Shown here: positions 14,067 to 26,682 of the stretch, one piece after another | Layout of the letters: each line of letters begins with the position of its first letter | Numbering within the stretch: the stretch's first letter is position 1 | Source: Pyrinomonas methylaliphatogenes | GTDB lineage: Bacteria > Acidobacteriota > Blastocatellia > Pyrinomonadales > Pyrinomonadaceae | NCBI RefSeq assembly: GCF_000820845.2 | Contig: NZ_CBXV010000006.1 | Coordinates: 186,001 to 250,000, forward strand | Direction of reading: 5' to 3' | DNA: 64,000 nucleotides | The notes under the pieces: model-generated | Database searches by the model: none | What the model was told of the DNA's origin: nothing | What the model saw: only the letters and a program-made list of their open reading frames with translations | Position numbers and translations under genes: made by a program

Positions 14067-15017
14067 TCAGTTGAACTTGATCGGAACCGTAACCCAACCG
14101 CTCTTGCCGCTCGGGTAACGGCGTTGCCGCGCGATGCGGAGAGCCGAAGCCTCATAAGCCTCCATGCCGGGCCGCGAGTTGGCCACCGTCGCCTGTGAGA
14201 CGCGCCCTTGTTCATCGACGAAGACGCGCACGATGACCGTCTGACCGCCGGATGTCTCGACGCGTTTCTGCGCGCTGGCCGTCTCGCCGCTCGTCTGTGC
14301 CGTATCGCGCGCAATCCTTTCCATCTGCCGACGTTCCAACTTCTCGTGCTGGCGCTGAACCGCTTCCGCCCTGCTCGGCTCTGCAGCTTGAGCCTCTTTG
14401 GGCGAAGCTTCCGCAGTTTCGCTCGGCGGCGCAAGCGGCGACGGCGAACTCACCGGCTGTGGCGTGACTGCAGGCGGAGGCGCGACCGAAGCGGCGTTCG
14501 TCCTCTTCAAACCGAACCAGTCGGTCAGAGCTCCCACCGCCGTCGCACAGACCAACACGGCGACGGCTGCCACGCCGACGCCTAAGGCTCGACGCCGCCC
14601 CTCCTCACCGGCGACCGCCGAGAATTCGGTCTCCCCTGTCTCTTCATACTCTTCGCGCAGCCTTTCGATCTCTTCCTCGGTCAATCCGGCAAACGGATCT
14701 CCGACCGGCACGCCTTCGTCCAATCGTCGCAGACCTTCGAGCACCACTTGGGCCCAAGGTTCGTTGATAGTTCTCTCCGGAGCCTCGCGCTGTGGTTGAA
14801 AGTCGAACTTCACGTTAGGCTGGCGCAAAGCGTAATAGACAGCCTCCACCCCTTTGAGCGAACCGATGCGCGCGTCAACTAGCTCGCCATCCTTGATGTA
14901 GAAGATACCGGGCAAAGGCGAGTAAGCGACCTTGAGGCGGCCCGTCTTACGCTGATTGCAGAAGAACTCGATCAGTTCGGCAAGAGAGAGATCGCTCAGT
15001 TGTCCGGTTAGTGCCAT
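14067..15017 (-). CDS. DUF4388-transmembrane-TonB C-terminal domain protein
   Basis: From the ATG at 15017 (AAGGAACGGAAG upstream) the protein has 316 residues. The N-terminal 100 residues match the DUF4388 (PatA-like) pattern: MALTGQLSDLSLAELIEFF, RKTGRLKV, GIFYIKDGELVDA. A single hydrophobic helix follows (about residues 165-185, VAAVAVLVCATAVGAL), then a Pro/Ala/Ser-rich linker and a C-terminal TonB-type domain (VIVRVFVDEQGRVSQATV, ALRIARQRRYPSG). DUF4388 would be cytoplasmic and the TonB-like end periplasmic. This is an unusual joining of a signalling-associated domain to an energy-transducer end. It ends a two-gene pair with the next TonB-like gene upstream (28-base gap). Confidence 0.75.
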   Translation of the reverse strand: MALTGQLSDLSLAELIEFFCNQRKTGRLKVAYSPLPGIFYIKDGELVDARIGSLKGVEAVYYALRQPNVKFDFQPQREAPERTINEPWAQVVLEGLRRLDEGVPVGDPFAGLTEEEIERLREEYEETGETEFSAVAGEEGRRRALGVGVAAVAVLVCATAVGALTDWFGLKRTNAASVAPPPAVTPQPVSSPSPLAPPSETAEASPKEAQAAEPSRAEAVQRQHEKLERRQMERIARDTAQTSGETASAQKRVETSGGQTVIVRVFVDEQGRVSQATVANSRPGMEAYEASALRIARQRRYPSGKSGWVTVPIKFN

Positions 15018-15045
15018 GCGACTTCCGTTCCTTTCCGTAGGGCGT

Positions 15046-16161
15046 TCACTGCTCGTAAACGAAGTTATAGGTGATGACTCCCGCGACCTTGACTGGTTGA
15101 CCGGAAAGCAGAGTCGGCGTAAATCGCGCCTGACGCGCTGCCGCGACAGCGGCCTCATGCAGCAAAGCCGGCCCGCTGACGGCGCGCGCGGAGATCACCC
15201 TACCCGACACATCGACCACAACCTCGACATTGACGACGCCTTGAACATGAGCGCGCCTTGCCGCTTCAGGATAGATGGGCTTCGGCAAGCTGATCGCGCG
15301 CCCGTTCAACACGCCGCCGGAGATCGGTTTGAGCAGAGGTTTGGGCGTCGGCGGGGGCGCATCAGCCTCGACTCGCACCGGAGTCCCGGCATCGGCGGCC
15401 ACCTCGACCGGAACCTTGGGCGCGGGCGCAGGCGTCAACGAAGCCACACGGTCGGGCGAAACCGTGGTCAAAGGCGGAACGGCTTTGCCATCTTTCGCCC
15501 CACCGCGCGAATCAGCGACGGGTTTGTTTGCCATCCCCACTGCCCCCGTAGAGGGCTTGACGGGGGCGACCGTCGGATTGGCGACATTACTGGCAGCGTT
15601 GCTGGCGGCATTATGGCCGGAAGCGAGCGCGCTCGAAGTTTGAACTATCTTGGCGACGTTATCCTCGTAAAAGTAGGTGATCGTCCGGTAGGTCACTTCC
15701 GTCGGCTCATAGGTGATCTTTCCGCCTTCGATGACAGCGACGGATGTCGTCATCTTCACCCAATTTCCCACGGCATCGAACTCGTATGAATAGACCTCCT
15801 TGCTGAGGATCGTCCCATCGCTGTTATAGAGCGTCATCTCCGTGATGTTGCCGCGGTCATCGTATTTATAGACCTCACGGCCCGTCAGATTCGAACTCTC
15901 CACGGAGTAATAGGCGTTGTCGATCTTGTTGCCCTTCAAATCGTAGGTCGCCGTCTCTAAGAGCACGCGCGGCCCTTCGACAACCTTCCCTCCCTTGACG
16001 GCTAACTTTGCCGTTTCAGTGCGCACACGACGCACAGGACCGATCAATCCATCGCGGATCCGGTCGTTGTCGGCCGTCCCTTGCGCCCATGTCATGCCGA
16101 AAAGACCGCCACATACAAACAGAAAGAACAGGGCTGTTATGAGGTTGCTGCGTCCAAACAT
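15046..16161 (-). CDS. Exported TonB-family C-terminal protein with YD-like N-terminal repeats
   Basis: From the ATG at 16161 (AAGGAGAT eight bases upstream) the protein has 371 residues. A signal peptide or membrane anchor is clear at the start (LITALFFLFVCGGLFGMTWAQG). Residues about 40-170 form short beta repeats (YDLKGNKID, YKYDDRGNITEM, YSYEFDAVGNWVKM) that recall YD/RHS-type repeats. A low-complexity linker rich in Ala, Pro, Val and Thr leads to a TonB C-terminal domain (YPEAARRAHVQGVVNVEVVV, AARQARFTPTLLSGQPV). It probably spans or decorates the periplasm and couples to outer-membrane partners. The long leader starts at a good promoter at 16413-16441. Confidence 0.75.
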   Translation of the reverse strand: MFGRSNLITALFFLFVCGGLFGMTWAQGTADNDRIRDGLIGPVRRVRTETAKLAVKGGKVVEGPRVLLETATYDLKGNKIDNAYYSVESSNLTGREVYKYDDRGNITEMTLYNSDGTILSKEVYSYEFDAVGNWVKMTTSVAVIEGGKITYEPTEVTYRTITYFYEDNVAKIVQTSSALASGHNAASNAASNVANPTVAPVKPSTGAVGMANKPVADSRGGAKDGKAVPPLTTVSPDRVASLTPAPAPKVPVEVAADAGTPVRVEADAPPPTPKPLLKPISGGVLNGRAISLPKPIYPEAARRAHVQGVVNVEVVVDVSGRVISARAVSGPALLHEAAVAAARQARFTPTLLSGQPVKVAGVITYNFVYEQ

Positions 16162-16412
16162 CTTGAGAATCTCCTTCCGTTCGTCGGGTGATCCCAAATT
16201 CGCGCTTGAAGACCGATCTCGCAGCGAAAGAGAGCGCTCCGAAGCTAAACGCATCGCGCGATAACTCCGGATGAGGTTCCCATCCCGTTCGATCTTTGAA
16301 AGAACTCGCCGCATAGTGCTGATCTACACGTGGAGAGCACGACGCCGTCTTGGTTAAGAAGTGCCAAACCGTAGGAAGGTCGCGCTGCCGGCACCAAGCA
16401 GCGGCGGGATAA

Positions 16413-22733: not shown

Positions 22734-25163
22734 TCACTTCTCTCCTAGCCGGAAAGTCAGTCCGATCATGACGCTTCGCGGATAACCCGGCGTCGCGTGT
22801 ATCCGCGCTCTTGGCACATCCGCAGGATGCACGCGCGAGACGAAGAAATTTTGCGTCTCGTAGTACCTTTTGTCGAAGAGATTATCTATCGCAAAGTTCA
22901 GGTCCAACCTGCTCAGCAAACGCTTACTCACGTAAACATCCACTATATCCAAACCCGCAGCGCGAATGCCAGCGTCGAGCGGGTCCAGCCGATAGCTGCC
23001 CGCATGCCGGTAGCGAAGCGATCCGGCAAACCCTCGCCAACCGGAAAGCGTAAATCCAGCGTTAGCCACCGTATGCGGAGCGCGATCGACGTATTCGCGC
23101 GGGTTCGTGCCGCGGAAGAAGGCGTTCATCACCTGCGTCAACCCGCCGTTGAAAGATAGATAAGATGATAGGCGAACCGACAGTTTCACTTCGTACCCAT
23201 AAGCGCGGCTCGGGCCAACGAACTCCGTGCTCCCGTCATCCGGCACATAGACCTGTTGATTCGACGTGTCGATCAAGAACAGATCGGTCGTCATCGAAAG
23301 GCGCTTGTAGTTGTGCGAAGTCCCCACCTGGTAAAAATCCGTCGTCGCGACCTTCGGGCCGTTGGGATGCTGGACCACTCCGCGCGCATCTTGACTGCTG
23401 ATGCCGCGCCCGTAATTGAAATGAAAAGTTAACGGCACGCTATCGAACGGAGCATAAGAGACGGCGGCTTTGGGTTGAAAGCGCCCCGCGCTTTCGGCGC
23501 CCGAAAGCTCCGGCGCGATTTTATCATCGACGGCGAAACGAAACAGATCGTAACGCGCACCGCCTACGAGATGCAGTCTTCCGCCGAGCAGGTCCAGCGC
23601 CTGCTGCGCATACCAACCGACGTTTGTCACGCGCGCGTGCGCGCTCGTCAACGGGCAACACTCTTCATCAGGCAAAATGCGCGGCAAAAAGGCGCGAACC
23701 GGATCGCGACCGATGGAAGGATAGAGCCCGACGTTCGTCTGAAAAGCGTTGAAGTTACCGCCGACGGTTAGCACTCCAGTTACTCCAGAAATCCGATCGA
23801 GCCGCACATACTGCAGATTGGCCCCTTGCTGCAAGCGCGAATCATGCTGCTGTATCTCATCCCCGTATTCTGGATCGACGAGGAAGAAAGTGAAATTGGA
23901 CCACAGGTCGAAGAGCGACCGCGTGATGAACCCATCGACCTTGAGGAGATCTCCGCGCGCGTTCTCTCGCCTATAATAAACTCCGATCGTTCCCGCCTCG
24001 ACTTTGCCGCCATTGTCCGGGTCGATGAAACCGAAACGGTCGAGCTCTCCGGCGAAGACCAGATCGAGCGGGATCTGCCCGGAAGAGAAGAAGCTGTTGC
24101 GACCCGCGTTCAACTTCACGCTCACGCTCGATCGCGCGTCAAGCTCCCGCGTGTAATTGCCCGTCACATTATCCCTGTGATACCGAAGGGGGTTCAGGAA
24201 AGGACCATCGGTGCGCGACGCCTCGTAAGCGACGAAAGCGCGCGCGCGCGCAAGCTGCGGACTGTAAGCGAGAAAGCTCCTGAAAGCATCGAACGAACCG
24301 ACTTGTACCCGCGCGCTCAAGACGTTCGGCAAACTCTCCTTCGTGCGGATATGGACGACGCCGAGACCGGAAAAGTCGCCGTACTCGGCGGCGAATGGGC
24401 CGTTTAAGATATCCACATCGGCGATCAACTCCGGCGTCAAGCTCTTCAACGCGCCGAGATACCCTTGCCCATGCCCTTGCGTCGCTTGATTCTGCTGCAC
24501 ATCGTCGACTAAAACTTTCAAACCGCCGAACAGTCCGCCGTGATCTAGATTGAAACCGAAGCGGCGGATTTCGAGCGATTTGCCGCCTCCTTCGTGCTGC
24601 CCGGCGTTGATCCCGGCATCGAGCGTGTGGAACAGTTGATCGTCACGCAAGAAGAGACCTTCGCGATAGATCGCGTCGTTCCTCCGCTCGATGGATGGAT
24701 CAGTGATCGAAGCGACGATGACGACCGATTCGTGAATCGGCGGGGCCAGCAACTCGACCGTGATTCGCAGATCATCCGCCCTCTCGTCAGCGCCGATCTC
24801 GCGCACGGTTCGCTTGATCCCTTTACCTTCGAAGGCGAGCGTTATCGGGCCACTCGGCACTTGCAGCCGGAACCTCCCTTCGGCATCGCTCATCGCCCTC
24901 TGCTCGCCCAAACTCGTGCGCGCCGTGACCGCAACGCCCGGGACCAACTCGTTGCGCTGTGACGTGACCGTGCCGGAGACGATGCGCCACGCACCTCGCT
25001 CCTGTGGCGCGGCGGCAACCCGAAGTCCTAAGAGCAAAACGAGAAGCGCGATGCCTGCCGGCAAGATGAGGCGCGACGCGGATCGACTCGATGATCCCGA
25101 CGCGAGCCCGCTCTCCACCAAATGGTGTCGCTCGCGAAACTTCTTCGAAAACGTTAAAACCAT
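22734..25163 (-). CDS. TonB-dependent outer-membrane receptor, probably for nickel
   Basis: Outer-membrane beta-barrel that imports a scarce ligand using TonB energy. From the ATG at 25163 (GGAGGT seven bases upstream) it has 809 residues: signal peptide, a carboxypeptidase-regulatory-like beta domain (about residues 55-135, VSGTVTSQRNELVPGVAVTA), a plug domain (about 150-270, including VDILNGPFAAEYGDFSGLGV) and a 22-strand-type barrel ending in an aromatic strand (SVMIGLTFRLGEK). His-rich stretches occur in the plug (GQHEGGGK, GHGQGYLG). It lies 97 bases after nikR, and operator-like dyads of the same sequence lie in front of both genes, so nickel is the best guess for the ligand. Cobalt or a metallophore is possible. 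Confidence 0.88.
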   Translation of the reverse strand: MVLTFSKKFRERHHLVESGLASGSSSRSASRLILPAGIALLVLLLGLRVAAAPQERGAWRIVSGTVTSQRNELVPGVAVTARTSLGEQRAMSDAEGRFRLQVPSGPITLAFEGKGIKRTVREIGADERADDLRITVELLAPPIHESVVIVASITDPSIERRNDAIYREGLFLRDDQLFHTLDAGINAGQHEGGGKSLEIRRFGFNLDHGGLFGGLKVLVDDVQQNQATQGHGQGYLGALKSLTPELIADVDILNGPFAAEYGDFSGLGVVHIRTKESLPNVLSARVQVGSFDAFRSFLAYSPQLARARAFVAYEASRTDGPFLNPLRYHRDNVTGNYTRELDARSSVSVKLNAGRNSFFSSGQIPLDLVFAGELDRFGFIDPDNGGKVEAGTIGVYYRRENARGDLLKVDGFITRSLFDLWSNFTFFLVDPEYGDEIQQHDSRLQQGANLQYVRLDRISGVTGVLTVGGNFNAFQTNVGLYPSIGRDPVRAFLPRILPDEECCPLTSAHARVTNVGWYAQQALDLLGGRLHLVGGARYDLFRFAVDDKIAPELSGAESAGRFQPKAAVSYAPFDSVPLTFHFNYGRGISSQDARGVVQHPNGPKVATTDFYQVGTSHNYKRLSMTTDLFLIDTSNQQVYVPDDGSTEFVGPSRAYGYEVKLSVRLSSYLSFNGGLTQVMNAFFRGTNPREYVDRAPHTVANAGFTLSGWRGFAGSLRYRHAGSYRLDPLDAGIRAAGLDIVDVYVSKRLLSRLDLNFAIDNLFDKRYYETQNFFVSRVHPADVPRARIHATPGYPRSVMIGLTFRLGEK

Positions 25164-25181
25164 CGCGAACCTCCGATTTGA

Positions 25182-25207
25182 TAACATTAATTTTAAATTC
25201 GTAATAC
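25182..25207 (-). promoter_or_regulatory. Probable NikR operator before the TonB-dependent receptor
   Basis: A 26-base AT-rich partial dyad matches the element before nikR (25737-25762) at 20 of 26 positions, sharing TAATTT and AATTCGT with TAC at the right end. It ends 19 bases before the receptor's start codon and would block transcription or early elongation when bound. Assignment to NikR is inference from location and duplication. Confidence 0.6.
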
Positions 25208-25260
25208 GAAGATCAAGCACAACCCTCCGCCCGCCAACGATCATCTTGCCCTTTAAATTT

Positions 25261-25698
25261 CTATTTCCTCCGATCCGTGATCTTCTTCGCCGGGATGGTC
25301 AAAAAAAGGCGCCCGTGTTTGACGCCTTTGATGCTGATGAGCGCGTCGGCGAGCGCGCGCACTCTCCTGGCTGGCCCCCTTAGGACGATCACTTCCATGC
25401 AATCATCGTGACTGATGTGAACGTGTAAGACCGAGATGATCAATCGATAGTGGTCGTGCTGTAGGGCCGTGAGGCGGTCAGCGAGATCGGTCGCATGATG
25501 GTCATAGACGATCGTCAGCGTGCCGAGCACATCCGCTGCCTTCGGCCTTTCGTCGAGATGGGCGCGCACGAGCGCGTCGCGCATCAGATCGCGCAGCGCT
25601 TCCGAACGGTTGCCGTATCCTTGTCGCTCGATCAGACGATCGAAGCTTTCGAGCAGGTCATCTTCAACGCTCACGCTGAAACGAACCAACTCTCCCAT
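25261..25698 (-). CDS. nikR: Nickel-responsive ribbon-helix-helix regulator
   Basis: DNA-binding repressor that senses Ni(II). The 145 residues have an N-terminal ribbon-helix-helix (VRFSVSVEDDLLESFDRLIE, NRSEALRDLMRD) and a C-terminal ACT-like metal domain. The four nickel ligands of E. coli NikR are all present with a constant offset of five: His81, His92, His94 and Cys100 (HDHYRLIISVLHVHISHDDC). The ATG at 25698 has an upstream GGAGGAAACGG site. It is immediately followed by the receptor gene, and its own promoter overlaps a dyad at 25737-25762, so autoregulation is likely. Confidence 0.95.
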   Translation of the reverse strand: MGELVRFSVSVEDDLLESFDRLIERQGYGNRSEALRDLMRDALVRAHLDERPKAADVLGTLTIVYDHHATDLADRLTALQHDHYRLIISVLHVHISHDDCMEVIVLRGPARRVRALADALISIKGVKHGRLFLTIPAKKITDRRK

Positions 25699-25736
25699 CC
25701 GTTTCCTCCATCATCTTCCTCGAGCGCATCCCGTTA

Positions 25737-25762
25737 TAGCACTAATTTAGAATTCGTGCTAC
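25737..25762 (-). promoter_or_regulatory. Probable NikR operator overlapping the nikR promoter
   Basis: TAGCAC (25737-25742) and GTGCTA (25756-25761) form a perfect 6-base dyad around a 13-base AT-rich centre. On the minus strand TATAAC follows directly after the dyad's GTGC, a plausible minus-10 box, so binding would cover the promoter. The same element recurs before the receptor gene at 25182-25207. Confidence 0.65.
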
Positions 25763-25967
25763 TGAATTTCGCGCGGACGGCCCATCCCGAGATCTCGATT
25801 TGAGGTGAGCTCGCTTATAGGCGAAGCGATGGCGAGATGTCTTGGAAGCTTTCCGGATCGAGCGTCGCAGGGGTGATTCAAGTTATACAGGCACGGTCAC
25901 GCGCCGAAGGAGCGCGATGTAAGACCGCTTAGCTTCAAAAACTTTGCTGATAATCCTGCCCGAGCCT

Positions 25968-26513
25968 TCAGTGTCCGGCGTTCGCTCCGGCAGCGCGCGC
26001 CCGCGTCGTGCGGCGCGCATGTTTGGCACAGGCTGCCGCCAATGCCTCATCGACACGCTGCACGATATCGCACTCGGGCTTGCGGCAAACGGTGCTCAAT
26101 TCAGAGATGACCAGATAACGGGCCCGCTCCAACATCCGCTGTTCGCGGAAAGAGAGCGGCTTGAACTGACTGAGATACGTCAATGTCTTCAGGACTTCGG
26201 CGACGGCAAAGATATCGCCCGTCCTCATCTTCTCTGAAAACTCCTTGAAACGATCCTTCCAATCGGTCGGCGGCGAGGCGAAATCATCCGCCAGATTCTT
26301 CAAAAGCATCTCCCCTTCAGCCGCCGAGATCGGCGATCGAAGACCAACTTCACGCGCGTTATCGACGGGAACAAGGACGACGGAATTGGTAGACGCAAGA
26401 CGGAGTGTGTAGAAAGGAAGGACTGTTGATCCGATCTGTTTCTGTTCGATCTGTTCGATGATACCAATTCCGTGATTGGGGTAAACGACCTTTTGGCCGA
26501 CCTTGAAACCCAC
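25968..26513 (-). CDS. CarD/CdnL-family RNA polymerase-binding regulator
   Basis: Binds the RNA polymerase beta subunit and stabilises open promoter complexes. From the GTG at 26513 (AGGAGG six bases upstream; the adjacent GTG at 26516 is also possible) the protein has 181 residues. The N-terminal Tudor-like domain is clear (FKVGQKVVYPNHGIGIIEQI, STVLPFYTLRL, NSVVLVPVDNAREVGLR). The helical DNA-binding domain follows (DWKDRFKEFSEKMRTGD, RERVMLERAR-like FREQRMLERARYLVISEL). The C-terminus ends in a basic, low-complexity tail (HARRTTRARAAG). It is a single-gene unit next to the polysaccharide locus. Confidence 0.9.
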   Translation of the reverse strand: MGFKVGQKVVYPNHGIGIIEQIEQKQIGSTVLPFYTLRLASTNSVVLVPVDNAREVGLRSPISAAEGEMLLKNLADDFASPPTDWKDRFKEFSEKMRTGDIFAVAEVLKTLTYLSQFKPLSFREQRMLERARYLVISELSTVCRKPECDIVQRVDEALAAACAKHARRTTRARAAGANAGH

Positions 26514-26682
26514 CACGCACCTCCTGCGGTTGTCCATCAAAATTATAGGGCGAGCCGAAGAGATCCCCAATTTAAGCCCCTCCTTGCTCGCCTCTTGTGT
26601 TGCGACTCTTAATCAGAGTGTAACAATCCGCTCTGCGAGCGTCAAGCTCCTTATTCTAAAAGGCGACGCGGCTTTCCCGAAT

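Follow-up and report, generated by a model that had tools for sequence, protein, structure and literature searches.

Gene locus and the NikR protein

When a gene for a nickel-responsive repressor stands beside one for a TonB-dependent outer-membrane receptor, does the repressor control the receptor, and does the receptor bring in nickel? This question is raised by a locus of the heat-loving soil bacterium Pyrinomonas methylaliphatogenes, whose genome measures 3.79 Mb; the locus lies in a stretch of 64 kb, here called the window (G000:C6:186001-250000). Both genes are on the minus strand: nikR (25698-25261, 145 amino acids) comes first and, after a gap of 97 nt, the receptor gene (25163-22734, 809 amino acids). 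Translation of nikR starts at ATG 25698, behind a Shine-Dalgarno sequence GGAGG at 25705-25709, and that of the receptor at ATG 25163, preceded by GGAGG at 25174-25170. Pfam identifies the gene upstream (25968-26534) as encoding a CarD-type regulator and the one downstream as encoding a photolyase. A second Pyrinomonas genome (L029/L133) has the same locus, again with a photolyase gene 3' of the receptor. An earlier note on this DNA had proposed that two matching operators define a nickel regulon here.

The 145-residue product has the composition of a NikR repressor, with an N-terminal ribbon-helix-helix domain (PF01402) and a C-terminal NikR_C domain (PF08753), both above cut-off. It scores 185.6 bits against NF003381 (cut-off 105) and 150 against NF002815 (cut-off 83), and 128 against TIGR02793, which is under that profile's cut-off of 175. 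It is related to an archaeal NikR in the PDB (2bj1, E 1e-38). Alignment places His81, His92, His94 and Cys100 at the nickel ligands of the Escherichia coli protein (His76, His87, His89 and Cys95), in agreement with the earlier note, and the four ligands are kept in every complete NikR aligned.

Form and position of the operators

The two 26-mers first noticed, at 25182-25207 and 25737-25762, are indeed equal at 20/26 positions, an agreement that none of 2 million random 26-mer pairs from the window reaches. Comparison with relatives gives a better unit of 27 bp, made up of two 7-bp half-sites GTRNYAC with 13 bp between them. On the minus strand, the box of the receptor gene (25181-25207) reads GTATTAC-N13-ATGTTAT and that of nikR (25736-25762) GTAGCAC-N13-GTGCTAT. 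Both had been described as dyads; the description fits the nikR site, which is self-complementary at 20/27 positions with diverging half-sites, but not the receptor site, where the figure is 16/27 and the 7-mers stand in tandem. Because the degenerate half-site consensus reads alike on both strands, half-sites may stand in tandem, converging or diverging, and the 39 boxes found ahead of receptor orthologues divide into 26 tandem, 8 diverging and 5 converging ones. Such free orientation would be explained if one dimer of the known ribbon-helix-helix fold read each half-site with two-fold symmetry.

Both boxes lie before their genes, as had been claimed. The receptor operator stops 17 nt short of its start codon, ATG 25163, and the corresponding distance for the nikR operator, to ATG 25698, is 37 nt. 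The 3' half of the nikR box overlaps TATAAC (25738-25733), a hexamer resembling a -10 element that may serve as such in the nikR promoter. A scan of 24900-26000 for sigma-70 promoters and terminators gave no match. The E. coli-type site GTATGA-N10-16-TCATAC was also considered for the locus and rejected, its sole match in the genome being on another contig.

The Pyrinomonas boxes are off consensus at outer half-site positions, and the protein also has a peculiarity of its own. The DNA-reading strand of NikR from Geobacter uraniireducens is reportedly Arg-Gly-Ser, and Arg-Gly-Ser (RFGVS) also occurs in nearly all acidobacterial relatives. Pyrinomonas NikR differs in having Arg-Ser-Ser (RFSVS), as in archaeal 2bj1 by alignment.

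Specificity of the box

A matrix was built from 19 sites of relatives, all Blastocatellia, with the sites of the window left out. Within the 64 kb it ranks these two sites first and second, at 27.1 bits (receptor) and 23.3 bits (nikR), and the next locus reaches 5.8. A genome-wide motif search, which the earlier note had suggested, returned the same two places at E <= 1 (E 0.017 for the receptor, 0.034 for nikR) and no third. Over 97 genomes, the model finds matches with E < 0.07 in 19, all of which encode NikR, a concordance that is partly circular because most of those genomes supplied training sites. That the matrix transfers beyond its training set is shown by 78 regions lying 5' of receptor orthologues, of which many come from Terriglobia, outside the set. 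Their scores are sharply bimodal: 43 are at least 15 bits, one is 11.7 and the remainder are at most 7.4. In 801 kb of those loci, approximately one match of at least 15 bits falls outside the regions upstream of receptor genes and nikR. As a detector of NikR sites in Acidobacteriota, the matrix gives almost no false matches. Although both operator cores are AT-rich (AATT, AAATT), the idea that the two sites are a chance resemblance in intergenic DNA is already refuted, since a matrix trained without them places them as the best two in 64 kb, 780 dinucleotide shuffles of the upstream regions give a maximum of 10.5 bits, and orthologous loci show a box of this 27-bp form in the equivalent position.

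Co-occurrence of box and NikR across Acidobacteriota

The pairing of nikR with the receptor gene is conserved in about 20 Blastocatellia, nearly all of which have the box ahead of the receptor, and the box is also found there in two genomes (G032 and G061) whose nikR sits on another contig. A set of 25 genomes with the box and another of 25 without it were chosen before NikR was sought; NikR was present in 24/25 of the former and 5/25 of the latter (Fisher p 4e-8), and three of these five do have boxes, though weaker ones (11.7 to 16.8 bits). Including the adjacent cases, box and NikR occur together in 39 of 70 genomes and are both missing from 28, leaving 3 that are discordant. The labels for box and NikR switch many times on the receptor tree. 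Phylogenetically independent pairs with unlike box status typically show the matching difference in NikR, in 8/8 cases (an average of 7.5 of 8 across random pairings; median p of the sign test 0.008).

These patterns bear on whether the boxes might belong to another regulator, the adjacency of nikR being fortuitous. Such a reading could appeal to half-sites that are unlike the E. coli NikR site and to the tandem, not dyadic, form of one operator. Against it, the NikR boxes of delta-proteobacteria share GTGTTAC half-sites 13-14 bp apart in a box of 27-28 bp (PMC545781), and the presence of the box tracks NikR, in trans as well as in all eight independent pairs. Control by another regulator is thus highly improbable, and because of this tracking NikR is very probably the regulator of the box.

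The circuit is not uniform within the phylum. Neither box nor NikR accompanies approximately 40% of the receptor orthologues examined, so the receptor is not coupled to NikR everywhere; in NikR-less genomes such as L134, L143, L153 and L200, a receptor orthologue is present and the box absent. Boxes upstream of nikR occur in both Pyrinomonas genomes (L029 having the same arrangement), in G012 and G079 and, in weak form, in G028, while in most other relatives the receptor alone is boxed. Autoregulation of nikR would therefore be limited to certain lineages.

The receptor

The receptor gene encodes an N-terminal CarboxypepD_reg domain (PF13620, residues 62-128), a plug (PF07715) and a beta-barrel (PF00593), all above cut-off, and has orthologues across Acidobacteriota. 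The nearest named profiles, those of siderophore, haem and PqqU receptors, all score far under cut-off. The extra N-terminal domain is real, as the earlier note had it, but the different domain architecture is not meaningful. It is ruled out as the mark of a special nickel receptor by orthologues in Bryobacterales (L178, L182) that carry the box and lack CarboxypepD_reg, and the argument from architecture is weak for this reason. In the AlphaFold2 model (mean pLDDT 68.7) the barrel is confident and the plug, residues 139-262, is mostly below 50. Four histidines are invariant, three in the plug (190, 208 and 231) and one in the barrel (440), and these residues would fit a role as metal ligands.

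In many Pyrinomonadaceae, the receptor gene is followed, directly or at a short distance, by one for a class I/II aminotransferase (PF00155; L041-L046, L154, L155, L159, L161-L163, L206).

Nickel-related genes in relatives and in Pyrinomonas

Genes linked to nickel recur around the receptor in relatives. The string nicO-nikR-receptor is found in G008, where nicO and nikR overlap by 4 bp, in G028 and in L135, where the small subunit of a [NiFe] hydrogenase is encoded downstream of it. At L034, hydrogenase genes including that of the small subunit lie about 4-5 kb from the nikR-receptor pair. The association extends to genomes without NikR: the receptor occurs together with NicO in G015 and G065, and NicO or HupE/UreJ_2 genes adjoin it in L094, L091, L142, L151 and L164; in the last three of these, HupE/UreJ_2 is the gene directly upstream. 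In some genomes with NikR and receptor (for example G020, G023 and G033), no clear match to hydrogenase or urease was obtained. Full urease matches were confined to G028 and G055 among the relatives searched.

A recurring cassette in relatives comprises a DUF4331 protein (PF14224), a TPR protein, NicO or HupE/UreJ_2, the receptor and sometimes NikR (L086, L142, L094, L039, L091, L147, L153, L200, L151, L164). There are 75 DUF4331 loci in 97 relatives, 35 of them (in 32 genomes) at most 5 kb from a NicO match. No mention of DUF4331 was found in the open literature searched, and the cassette is absent from the Pyrinomonas genome of the window.

That genome encodes a [NiFe] hydrogenase (L130:14255-17205), described as a group 5-type enzyme for which tropospheric hydrogen is a possible substrate (PMC4644332). 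A second gene resembling that of a hydrogenase small subunit (L130:9402-10427, G000:C8 about 935400-936430; 341 amino acids) lies about 4-5 kb upstream of the small/large pair, with sensor kinase and response regulator genes between. The sole nickel-permease candidate found is a short NicO homologue (L132:9196-9933), which is unlinked to the receptor, has no box and could be an exporter; CbiM/NikM was sought in the genome and not found. A search for urease matched only 42 of 121 model positions, in a frame of 561 amino acids that was read as a related amidohydrolase and rejected as a urease. For energy coupling, tonB-exbB-exbD-exbD has been reported in P. methylaliphatogenes (PMC4644332), and the genome gives eight TonB_C matches. 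Two adjoining minus-strand proteins with a C-terminal TonB_C (14067-15158 and 15046-16314) are encoded about 6-9 kb from the receptor gene and have no box.

Proposed mechanism and the question of cargo

The earlier proposal of a nickel regulon with a TonB-dependent receptor is upheld by independent sequence evidence as to the identity of NikR, the operators and the regulon, and a nickel regulon of nikR and the receptor gene is well supported. On the fuller explanation, which is considered likely, this two-gene NikR regulon serves a receptor that imports nickel, probably as a chelate. With sufficient nickel in the cytoplasm, Ni-loaded NikR tetramers would sit on the 27-bp boxes over the nikR and receptor promoters, placing one ribbon-helix-helix dimer on each GTRNYAC half-site, the two being 13 bp apart. 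Ni-NikR would thereby occlude the promoters and turn both genes off, with negative autoregulation of nikR; repression by occlusion is the simplest reading of the box positions. When nickel is scarce, the repressor would leave the boxes and the TonB-dependent receptor would be made, which would carry nickel, probably chelated, over the outer membrane. The unlinked NicO-family permease may move it further inward, and the main visible consumer in the genome would be the [NiFe] hydrogenase.

The main rival reading accepts control by NikR but takes nickel as a regulatory signal only, the main cargo being cobalt or a corrinoid, or a ferric siderophore. It is consistent with the siderophore, haem and PqqU profiles nearest to the receptor, although all are far under cut-off, with the ability of NicO and HupE families to move cobalt too, and with the retention of the receptor without NikR or box in 28/70 genomes. 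However, the neighbours of the receptor (NicO, HupE/UreJ, hydrogenase, NikR) are nickel-linked, and NikR-controlled uptake genes elsewhere are nickel transporters (PMC545781, PMC5317091). A cargo other than nickel is accordingly judged unlikely, and the recurrence of the circuit of sensor, site and receptor over the phylum makes the receptor a good candidate for nickel uptake.

A broader reading starts from nickel as the cargo and is offered only tentatively, being rather doubtful as it stands. The receptor might act at the outer membrane for an as yet undescribed nickel acquisition module of Acidobacteriota, whose other parts would be a NicO/HupE-type permease, a TPR protein and a DUF4331 protein and which some lineages would have brought under NikR control or released from it. 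Such a module might take up chelated nickel and, among other uses, feed hydrogenases that oxidise atmospheric hydrogen.

Relation to known systems

The closest precedent for the box is the NikR regulon of delta-proteobacteria, which shares its length and GTGTTAC-type half-sites as well as the placing of nickel uptake genes under NikR (PMC545781). There the half-sites mostly converge (in Desulfotalea they diverge), whereas acidobacterial boxes are mostly tandem and the two in the window are one tandem site and one diverging dyad. The delta-proteobacterial targets are mainly nikMNQO transporters, in contrast to the TonB-dependent receptor targeted here. A comparison by function is offered by FrpB4 and FecA3 of Helicobacter pylori, NikR-repressed outer-membrane proteins of TonB-energised nickel transport, whose genes likewise have a NikR site ahead of them; they differ from the Pyrinomonas receptor, known here from its sequence, in the N-terminal domain. 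Caldithrix abyssi, also from a non-proteobacterial phylum, has nikR, TonB-dependent receptors and a predicted shared NikR-like motif, but its loci contain NikMNQO-type permease genes (PMC5317091), unlike Pyrinomonas, where the permease candidate is unlinked.

Receptor-mediated nickel uptake, which the earlier note considered known in few bacteria, is commoner than that. In addition to FrpB4 and FecA3, a section of the review PMC11247825 names CntO, NikH, Bll6948, Daro_3944 and Rgel01002199 as nickel receptors, and for Caldithrix control of receptors by NikR has been predicted (PMC5317091). Since such receptors are already on record, the phylum-wide acidobacterial circuit adds to a known kind. 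A NikR-receptor link in Acidobacteriota was not found described in the open literature searched; in the literature compared, this receptor family, the phylum and the mostly tandem form of the box were not met.

The natural gain and loss of NikR together with its box on one receptor family constitutes a clean case of co-evolution between a regulator and its operator. For Acidobacteriota, a major soil phylum, the receptor is a likely outer-membrane route of nickel entry. Some members of the phylum have hydrogenases of high affinity whose presumed substrate is atmospheric hydrogen (PMC8027828, PMC4644332), and Pyrinomonas, a cultured genus, makes direct testing of nickel-limited hydrogen oxidation possible.
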